The translations under genes and the position numbers were made by a program. Below are positions 27,566 through 29,660 of a stretch of 64,000 nt of DNA, piece by piece (position 1 is the first letter of the stretch; each line of letters opens with the position of its first letter). The notes under the pieces were generated by a model. It was given only the letters and a program-made list of their open reading frames with translations. It searched no databases and had not been told where the DNA came from. The stretch comes from Arthrobacter sp. MYb214 (GTDB taxonomy: Bacteria; Actinomycetota; Actinomycetes; Actinomycetales; Micrococcaceae): positions 1-64,000 of the forward strand of contig NZ_PCPZ01000003.1 of the NCBI RefSeq assembly GCF_002979865.1, written 5' to 3'.

Positions 27566-28075
27566 TTACGGCTTGCGGGTTTCCGCGCTGATAAACCAGG
27601 CTTGCTGCTCCAGATCCGCAATGTACTGGTGCAGGATATCGGCGGTGGTCGGATCCGCTTCATCCACCGGGTCATGGACCTCTCGCATGACTGCCACAGT
27701 GGTCTGCAGTGCCTTGACTACCATGTCCACTGCATTGGTGGTCAGGATTTCGGTATTCACGGGTTGTTCCAGCTTCGTGTACTTCGTGACCGTTGCTGCC
27801 AGCCCGTCCGGAGTGGCATGCAAAGCTCGCATCCGCTCGGCGATTTCATCCGAGCCGCGGCGCGCGATGTCAACGATTTCGTCGAGGTTCTGGTGCAGGT
27901 CGCGGAAGTTGGGACCAACGACGTTCCAGTGGATTTGCTTGCCCACCAATTGCAGGTCCAGCAGCTGGATCAGCACGGTCTGCAAGGACTCGCGCAGCAC
28001 TTCCGGAGCCACGAACCCGTTTTCTGCGTTTTCGCGATCAGTTTTCTTTGCTGGAGTCTTCTTCGAATTAGCCAA
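27566..28075 (-). CDS. dps: Dps family ferritin-like DNA-protection protein
   Basis: A 169-residue four-helix protein that oxidises and stores iron with peroxide and may coat DNA as a dodecamer. The intersubunit ferroxidase ligands are present as QIHWNVVGPNFRDLHQNLDE (His, Asp, Glu). A Lys/Ala-rich N-terminus (residues 1-15) resembles the DNA-binding tails of other Dps proteins. Start at 28075 with AAGGAGAAGC. Usually induced by oxidative stress or starvation; no operator was recognised. Confidence 0.92.
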   Translation of the reverse strand: MANSKKTPAKKTDRENAENGFVAPEVLRESLQTVLIQLLDLQLVGKQIHWNVVGPNFRDLHQNLDEIVDIARRGSDEIAERMRALHATPDGLAATVTKYTKLEQPVNTEILTTNAVDMVVKALQTTVAVMREVHDPVDEADPTTADILHQYIADLEQQAWFISAETRKP

Positions 28076-28454
28076 TGCTTCTCCTTACGTTGTCATGGAC
28101 GCTTGGGGCAAGACCTTTCTCGGTGTCCCAGTCTGGACACTATCGATTTACCGGGCAGATTCCGACCGGATGGACAATTCTTTCGGAGAACGTTCAGCTT
28201 TCTCTTCGCGCCTGTTGAGCAATTCCAGAAGCCGCCATGGCAGCTGCGGAAAATCCTCCTTGTCCCTCGGGTTCCCGGGAATGGCGATTCCTTTAGCACG
28301 CAGTAGTGAATATTGGCCGAAGTCTCTGAACACCATGGGTATTGGCTTAACTGCGGGTTTCCAGCGGCTCTGAGCTTCCCCGAAATCCTTGAACCGGGCT
28401 TTTTCTACGCATAGCGTAGGGCAAGTCAGGAACCACCGACCCACGGAGGACAGC
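28076..28454. other. Intergenic region between dps and the low-complexity gene
   Basis: No gene is convincing in these 379 bases. A minus-strand frame (28148-28336, about 62 residues, ending GNPRDKEDFPQLPWRLLELLNRR after its middle) looks protein-like in composition but has no ribosome site at its ATG. It could be a small gene or chance. The promoters of dps and of the low-complexity gene should lie here. Confidence 0.35.
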
Positions 28455-28808
28455 ATGTCTGAGCAGGATGCAAACGAGCAGTTCGGGAACTTCGACAACA
28501 ACGAATCTGAAGGCTTCGAAAGCCAGTCCAATTCAGATTTCGGATCAAATGACAATGGCGGATTCGAAAGCCAGCAGTCAGAACAGCAGTCCTATGGCGG
28601 TGGCGAAAGCCAGCAGTCAGAACAGCAGTCCTACGGCAGCGACAGCCAGTCCGGACAGCAGTCGGAGCAGCAGTCCTACGGCGATAGCAACGAATCCGGT
28701 GAGGAATCGTTTGGCGGCGAAAGCCAGTCCGGACAGCAGTCCGATGGCCAATCGTATGGAAACGATGAAAGCCAGTTTGGTTCCGAAGAGCGGAATGAAG
28801 GATTCTAG
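28455..28808 (+). CDS. Highly biased Ser/Gln/Gly/Glu low-complexity protein
   Basis: A 117-residue protein with a good ribosome site (GGAGG before ATG 28455). About 26 residues are Ser, 21 Gln, 19 Gly and 18 Glu; there is no Ile, Leu, Val, Trp, Pro, Thr, His, Lys or Cys, and only one Arg. Aromatic residues (4 Tyr, 8 Phe) sit regularly in SYG and FES/SFG settings. The middle repeats ESQQSEQQSYG and related units (about residues 38-75), encoded by near-identical 30-base DNA repeats. The composition is that of an intrinsically disordered, prion-like domain. No signal peptide or membrane segment. Function unknown; it is flanked by terminators, so it is its own transcript. Confidence 0.7.
   Translation: MSEQDANEQFGNFDNNESEGFESQSNSDFGSNDNGGFESQQSEQQSYGGGESQQSEQQSYGSDSQSGQQSEQQSYGDSNESGEESFGGESQSGQQSDGQSYGNDESQFGSEERNEGF
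28570..28638 (+). repeat. Tandem DNA repeats inside the low-complexity gene
   Basis: Two near-identical units of about 30 bases, each encoding SQQSEQQSYG, start near 28570 and 28609. A third diverged unit follows near 28655. They suggest growth of the gene by internal duplication. Confidence 0.65.
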
Positions 28809-28872: not shown

Positions 28873-28923
28873 AGTAATCGCTTCACTGCTTGCACTGGGC
28901 AAGCGGTGAAGCGATTACTTTTG
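28873..28923 (+). terminator. Long rho-independent terminator
   Basis: A 21-base arm (28873-28893) pairs with 28899-28919 with one mismatch, followed directly by TTTT. It isolates the low-complexity gene from the downstream lipoprotein gene. The rest of the 28924-29081 gap shows only upstream sequence of the lipoprotein gene. Confidence 0.78.
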
Positions 28924-29081: not shown

Positions 29082-29660
29082 ATGGTTATGTTCTCGAAAA
29101 TTACCAAACGCCTCGCTGGGCCGCTGGCGGTTGGAATCCTTGCAGTCGCACTGGCAGGTTGCGTGAGCATCCAACCCTCCAGCGAAGAGACAAGCGCACC
29201 AGCAGAAGAAAGCATGGCACCGGAGAACGCCGGGCCTATCGAAGGCAGCGTCACCCCAAGCTCCAAAGCCCCAGAAGGCGCTTCTACTGGTACTCCCAAT
29301 GTTCCGAAGGCACCTGCGGACAGCACCTTCCAGTCCGTCTATGATTTCCTCGATGCGCAAGCGACCGAAATCAGGTGCACGGGCGGCATGGATATCTCTG
29401 AAATGGGTCAAATGCTGAAGCTCATCGGCGATTGCCAGAACGTCACCGTCTCTGGTTCCGGAAACATGATCGTCGCTCCGCACATCAAGAATCTTGAGCT
29501 GGACGGCAGCGGTAATATCGCAGCGGTCAAGAACATCAAGCACGTAACCTTTAGCGGCATCGGCAATTCTGCCGCATCCCTTAACGAGAACGCCAAGGTC
29601 ACGGACAACGGCTCGTCCAACAAATTTGGCGAGGAAGCCTTCGAAGGCATCACCTTCTGA
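29082..29660 (+). CDS. DUF3060-type lipoprotein
   Basis: A 192-residue predicted lipoprotein: signal peptide with lipobox LAGC near residue 27, a disordered Ser/Pro/Glu linker (30-80), then a short beta-rich domain. The domain repeats a VSGSGNMIV / ELDGSGNIA / FSGIGNSA pattern. This Gly-Asn-turn repeat is the hallmark of DUF3060, expected to form a parallel beta-helix-like stack. Function unknown. The start could also be the ATG at 29088. It is followed by a clear terminator. Confidence 0.72.
   Translation: MVMFSKITKRLAGPLAVGILAVALAGCVSIQPSSEETSAPAEESMAPENAGPIEGSVTPSSKAPEGASTGTPNVPKAPADSTFQSVYDFLDAQATEIRCTGGMDISEMGQMLKLIGDCQNVTVSGSGNMIVAPHIKNLELDGSGNIAAVKNIKHVTFSGIGNSAASLNENAKVTDNGSSNKFGEEAFEGITF

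Follow-up and report, generated by a model that had tools for sequence, protein, structure and literature searches.

In the 64,000-nucleotide stretch of Arthrobacter sp. MYb214 DNA analysed here (the window), the interval 28455–28808 on the forward strand is a real gene, preceded by a conserved promoter-like element and a ribosome-binding site, followed by a terminator and written in host-like codons. Its product is an acidic protein of 117 residues that, judged from the sequence, seems to have more in common with stress-protecting "hydrophilins" than with human FUS. The frame is under selection, and composition, charge and aromatic content are constant among its relatives. Among the genomes searched the gene is specific to Glutamicibacter, and it is selected yet dispensable. 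We tentatively favor, at somewhat less than an even chance, the view that this genuine gene encodes a hydrophilin-like stress protein, disordered and strongly acidic, on which a "sticker-and-spacer" layout is superimposed and which would act as an accessory protectant. The locus has the following features.

27566..28075 (−): dps, ferritin-like (PF00210), the divergent neighbor; Lys-rich N-terminal tail at residues 2–14, ANSKKTPAKKTDR
28389..28394 (+): putative −35 element TTGAAC; TTG invariant in 10 of 10 aligned sequences, the window included
28412..28417 (+): putative −10 element TAGCGT, 17 nt past the −35; TAGC invariant in 10 of 10
28424..28444 (+): short conserved 5' leader of the GTCAGGAACCACCGA type; ordinary RNA fold (z 0.75)
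28445..28449 (+): ribosome-binding site GGAGG, five bases before the ATG; GGAGGAC invariant in 10 of 10
28455..28808 (+): acidic low-complexity protein, 117 amino acids
28455..28499 (+): conserved N-terminal motif MSEQDANEQFGNFDN, with fewer synonymous changes than the remainder
28565..28699 (+): internal DNA repeats, encoding ESQQSEQQSYG-type units
28874..28918 (+): intrinsic-terminator-like hairpin, 20 pairs counted, with a T tail
29082..29660 (+): lipoprotein-like DUF3060 protein, the downstream neighbor

Reading frame and composition of the acidic protein

The complete 117-residue frame of the original prediction is exact, running from ATG to TAG, and its account of a Ser/Gln/Gly/Glu/Asp/Asn composition with spaced Tyr/Phe and QQSYG repeats is confirmed. 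The protein is composed of S26 Q21 G19 E18 N10 D8 F8 Y4 and one each of M, A and R; the eight residues S, Q, G, E, D, N, Y and F account for 97% of it. QQSYG occurs three times and [QE]S[YF]G five times. The count of 26 acidic residues against one basic agrees with the approximate figure given earlier. I, L, V, P, K, C, W and H are entirely absent, and for I, L and V an absence over 117 residues has p ~2e-13 under the composition of the 48 window ORFs used as genes. The earlier statement that there are no aliphatic residues thus holds for I, L and V but not for Ala, which is found once, at residue 6. At the DNA level the gene contains a 30-nt exact repeat at 28565 and 28604 and a 45-nt period repeat of 2.0 copies at 28611–28699.

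The codon-usage index of the frame is 0.72 against a background median of 0.65, i.e. host-like, and none of 1000 random synonymous versions reached it. Of the three ORFs compared, only this frame fits the host: an overlapping plus-frame ORF (0.44) and an antisense ORF (0.39) both look non-coding. Codon usage, dN/dS and the existence of relatives together argue against a chance ORF or a wrong frame.

The protein (P0001) has no family match in NCBIfam or in Pfam at E <= 1, the latter including the OB-fold domain PF00436, and no match among PDB sequences. It is probably cytoplasmic, as by eye it lacks a hydrophobic stretch for a signal peptide. Nothing points to a phage or plasmid origin: tblastn against 50,697 records from phages and 72,556 from plasmids gave no match. 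None of 112 pattern stretches examined on viral contigs was confirmed as a relative, and three members of the family gave no PHROG match. Within the 3.72-Mb genome itself, probably that of a Glutamicibacter, no paralogue was seen: the second protein match (E 0.345) looks like a chance frame, and the next match to the leader DNA is 19 bases long (E 0.18). Among the literature matches listed for Glutamicibacter and Arthrobacter arilaitensis, the titles and abstract openings contain nothing on the gene and no expression data for it.

Promoter-like element, leader and terminator

TTG-N17/18-TAGC and GGAGGAC are invariant in all 10 sequences of an alignment that counts the window and leaves out G004, G012 and G015. 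The hexamers upstream of the leader may be read as a promoter; the putative −10 reads TAGCCC in G016 and G008. An inverted repeat with perfect arms, CTACGC-ATA-GCGTAG (28405–28419), covers the putative −10; its left arm is not conserved in relatives. No RNA element was recognized: the leader folds without unusual features, and the sole Rfam match, to the sodF sRNA, is sub-threshold (E 0.22) and sits on the terminator hairpin. The gene had been described as isolated by terminators; this is accurate downstream, where a strong one lies at 28874–28918, but the scan found no strong terminator between the gene and divergent dps.

Distribution among genomes

A DNA model of the leader and N-terminus detected traces of the gene in 13 of 18 Glutamicibacter genomes and no convincing relative in the 377 genomes of the family outside the genus; two weak matches to the leader model there, in G175 (E 5e-4) and G303 (E 7e-4), were judged unrelated by eye. 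A protein profile matched 11 of 395 family genomes, every one Glutamicibacter, and one of 396 genomes of the order, the window's own. The profile overlooked G011 and G015, which the DNA model did detect, so diverged relatives in other genomes could also have escaped it.

The original prediction had proposed a search for orthologues with varying repeat number and had held that broken frames in relatives would speak against it. Nine genomes carry intact frames of 76–157 residues (G000, G001, G002, G004, G006, G007, G013, G014 and G016), and defects are confined to a minority of four: G008 has a TAG at codon 24, G015 retains only a remnant, and the start position reads ACG in G011 and ATA in G012, with 135 and 94 codons open, respectively. 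In the last two, ATG is replaced behind a GGAGGAC site while the frame stays open, which points to either recent loss or the use of a weak start. G002 and G012 also contain a degenerate stretch resembling the leader and N-terminus, interrupted by stops (L084 and L085, centre; E 0.0016 and 0.0017), possibly a dead older copy of the gene. The DNA model did not find the gene in G003, G005, G009, G010 or G017. With no copy found in five of the 18 genus genomes, and four others carrying a broken or oddly started one, any role must be dispensable. Intact copies are found in both halves of a weakly resolved, midpoint-rooted dps tree, which is most simply explained by an old gene that was lost several times.

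Apparent selection on composition, charge and aromatic spacing

Pairwise dN/dS is 0.18–0.28 in five of six ortholog pairs, the G016–G004 value resting on a single change of each kind; in the sixth, G000–G001, dS was not computable. The repeats make the ortholog alignments uncertain. Amino-acid differences remain within the eight residues SQGEDNYF in 26/33, 24/28, 41/45, 11/11, 17/19 and 43/51 cases (79–100%), compared with an expected 39–41%. The net charge per residue (NCPR) is −0.17 to −0.26 in all nine intact orthologues, and the aromatic fraction is 9–11% in eight of them and 4% in G002. DNA-level alignments, which are not scored by residue, show aromatic positions to be the best-kept class (41/60), followed through by Ser (68/122), Gln (54/102), Gly (72/154), acidic residues (59/151) and Asn (26/80); one of the six pairs, G000–G001, aligns poorly at the DNA level (aromatics 2/10). 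Acidic positions shift among orthologues, yet net charge stays near −0.2.

Phe or Tyr recurs about once per 7–15 residues in acidic, Ser/Gln/Gly/Asn-rich spacers, and Phe–Tyr swaps occur among orthologues. The aromatics are more evenly spaced than in 95% of shuffles in six of nine orthologues (the window protein and five others), a set in which G016 and G004 are near-identical; G001, G007 and G002 fall short of this level. Even spacing may partly be a by-product of repeat duplication. Taken with the dN/dS values and the confinement of changes to eight residues, the best-kept aromatics make both composition and spacing look selected.

The termini are conserved as well, with a start of the form MSEQDxNEQFGNF and an EGF end in seven of nine intact orthologues, G002 and G014 differing at the C-terminal end. 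Across 28 pairs of eight orthologues, codons for identical residues changed in 83 of 337 cases within the first 15 codons and 435 of 1032 in the remainder, a deficit that is likely due to translation initiation; the seven pairs with G002 break this trend (46/82 against 58/134). The G008 stop was considered as a natural test of released selection, but past it there are 6–7 nonsynonymous and 4 synonymous changes relative to sisters, a per-site ratio of ~0.39 that gives no clear sign of release.

These values bear on whether the gene is a decaying, weakly useful orphan with little present function, its repeats expanding by replication slippage. The internal DNA repeats, and the nine of 18 genus genomes in which the gene is not found, broken or oddly started, are what such an orphan would leave; dN/dS well below 1 and the retention of composition, promoter-like element and ribosome-binding site are not, and we regard this explanation as unlikely.

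The conserved ends raise a further alternative, that the protein is a decoy or adaptor acting through its termini, e.g. a mimic of the SSB tail, itself ending in an acidic residue, Gly and Phe (EGF). One of the three SSB loci of this genome encodes a protein ending ADEPPF after a Gly/Gln/Asn-rich disordered tail, and both proteins end in Phe with acidic residues close by. The acidic protein nevertheless lacks the Pro before Phe and any OB-fold (SSB domain) match, and with the divergent ends of G002 and G014 this makes the decoy reading very improbable.

Comparison with hydrophilins and FUS-type domains

Passages of PMC7448490 give the two compositional hydrophilin criteria as more than 6% glycine and hydrophilicity above 1. 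Glycine makes up 16.2% of the 117-residue protein and 8.5–23.1% over the nine orthologues. GRAVY is −1.81, and −1.49 to −1.81 across all nine; taking −1.81 as a hydrophilicity index of +1.81, a sign convention we assumed, places them all above 1. The disorder-type composition noted earlier is borne out, as the charge-hydropathy rule for disorder puts all nine intact orthologues on the disordered side. The protein thus resembles hydrophilins and LEA-like bacterial stress proteins in its glycine content, strong hydrophilicity, disorder-predicting composition, small size and position beside a stress gene, and differs from them in matching no Pfam or NCBIfam family. It is also unlike hydrophilins generally in being very Ser/Gln-rich, with regular aromatics and almost no Lys, and its conserved termini and aromatics exceed what a plain hydrophilin needs.

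The domains of FUS and its FET relatives, a class marked by phase separation or labile fibers, are Ser/Gln/Gly-rich with spaced Tyr/Phe in QSYG-like motifs, as is the protein described here. It also shares with them evenly spaced aromatic stickers in polar spacers, so that Tyr/Phe stickers could be proposed to drive its self-assembly into stress bodies, condensates of a liquid or gel kind. The spacing statistics above, the QSYG/QSFG motifs and the Phe–Tyr swaps are in keeping with this. According to a review, simple SYGQ repeats are enough for recruitment to stress granules, and recruitment in one screen rose with the number of charged residues (PMC7865556). Charge is where the likeness fails. 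The charged fraction is 0.23 and NCPR −0.21, compared with charged fractions of 0.02–0.10 in the six wild-type prion-like domains described in sections of PMC11820118, where variants of higher NCPR phase-separate less; the description of the protein as very close to FUS is not supported. Acidic insertions, according to PMC7865556, hinder isolated FUS-type domains from assembling and favor their assembly with the RNA-binding domain. The protein is stand-alone, with no RNA-binding domain and 26 of 117 residues acidic, and a net charge of about −0.2 per residue should oppose self-assembly. The high charge argues instead for contacts with basic partners, and we consider FUS-like self-assembly improbable.

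Excerpts of a review (PMC11175392) discuss bacterial prion-forming proteins, including RepA WH1, Clostridium Rho and Campylobacter SSB, in which prion-like composition was the lead, as it is here. Those are domains of larger nucleic-acid-handling proteins, whereas the present protein has no recognized folded part and its charge is high.

The dps neighborhood and a possible Dps partner

Adjacency to a stress-response gene, also part of the original prediction, stands: the neighbor is dps. The dps gene, the acidic gene and the DUF3060 gene are all positioned between hutU and hutH. The order is hutU, dps(−), acidic gene, DUF3060, hutH in G000, G001, G004, G008 and G016, and hutU, acidic gene, dps(−), DUF3060, hutH in G006, G007 and G013; in G014 the gene is on the same side of dps as in the latter three. 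The G001 copy was missed by BLAST but seen in the other comparison of gene order. It adjoins dps in eight of nine genomes with an intact frame, and lies ~22 kb away in G002 and ~205 kb away in G012. As hut genes flank the locus on both sides, its stability may be the only reason why the gene stays close to dps.

The Lys-rich tail of Dps, together with reports that Dps tails bind DNA (PMC7023142) and that Dps condenses with DNA (PMC10906006), suggests a rival reading. The protein would be a polyanionic, aromatic-studded chain that binds the basic N-terminal tails of Dps in this genus and competes with or joins DNA in Dps–DNA coacervates, thereby adjusting how the nucleoid is compacted and released. 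The divergent arrangement here, the placement beside dps in two different gene orders and the effect of acidic insertions on FUS-type assembly with an RNA-binding domain fit this proposal. Against it, the basic tail persists in genus genomes without the acidic gene, and dps and the gene lie far apart in G002 and G012. We think a Dps partner unlikely.

Small acidic ORFs near dps were sought with limits of 45–220 residues, GRAVY < −1.15, net charge per residue < −0.1 and an RBS-like site. In 27 stretches, 25 of them with dps, there were 14 such ORFs in the 87.5 kb near dps, eight of which belong to the Glutamicibacter family, and three in the other 402.5 kb (one the G002 family copy, two ~2 kb from dps). 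The own-genome background is three in 400 kb, or ~0.03 expected per locus. Among 32 loci without an intact copy nearby, five have an unrelated small acidic hydrophilic ORF within 1.5 kb of dps: three of 10 genus loci, two of seven from near kin (L091–L097) and none of 15 from other genera (L098–L112). In 14 of these last 15, compared with L091–L093 and the genus loci, Dps starts at an MKAS-type core without the basic tail seen in Glutamicibacter-type Dps; the remaining one, L108, has a stop in the matched Dps stretch. Binomial values against the background are 0.002 for 3/10, 6e-5 for 5/17 and 0.001 for 5/32, with cut-offs set after seeing the data, unproven ORFs (one, in G003, a Pro-rich frame) and about three clades of related loci contributing, so that these statistics only suggest a test.

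One ORF of this kind is found in another genus of the family (G043; L113:7834, also L091 from 406): 135 residues, acidic and Gln/Glu/Ser-rich with GYSEQ repeats, convergent with dps, and with a net charge of −0.21 per residue, equal to that of the 117-residue protein. No homology to the Glutamicibacter family was detected. Similar acidic proteins of 50–51 residues, with RGPI and an RFDAG end, are found ~0.5–2 kb from dps in G002, G012 and G011 (L043:6233 (−), L053:10038 (+) and L052:8571 (+)).

More broadly, bacteria with basic-tailed Dps might repeatedly recruit unrelated tiny acidic disordered proteins beside dps, as polyanionic co-coacervate partners that set the tightness of DNA packing or the speed of release, the Glutamicibacter protein with its even aromatics being the most elaborate; we rate this generalization as improbable.

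Proposed role and implications

As a hydrophilin-like protectant, a kind of protein expected to accumulate under water deficit or similar stress, the protein would stay in solution because its charges repel one another, and through its aromatic and acidic side chains it could form many weak contacts that shield protein surfaces which are basic or exposed. Cell drying, starvation or nucleoid compaction may be the trigger. It would then be a dispensable, auxiliary protectant and not a prion-like scaffold that self-assembles. If the link to Dps were true, it would be a dedicated tuner added to nucleoid condensation during starvation. The gene encodes a bacterial protein that stands alone and whose sequence and length (76–157 residues) drift, while its charge, composition and aromatic content appear to be under selection. 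Its natural length variants, the stop mutant and the species without the gene provide a ready test set for bulk disorder properties in a bacterial cell.
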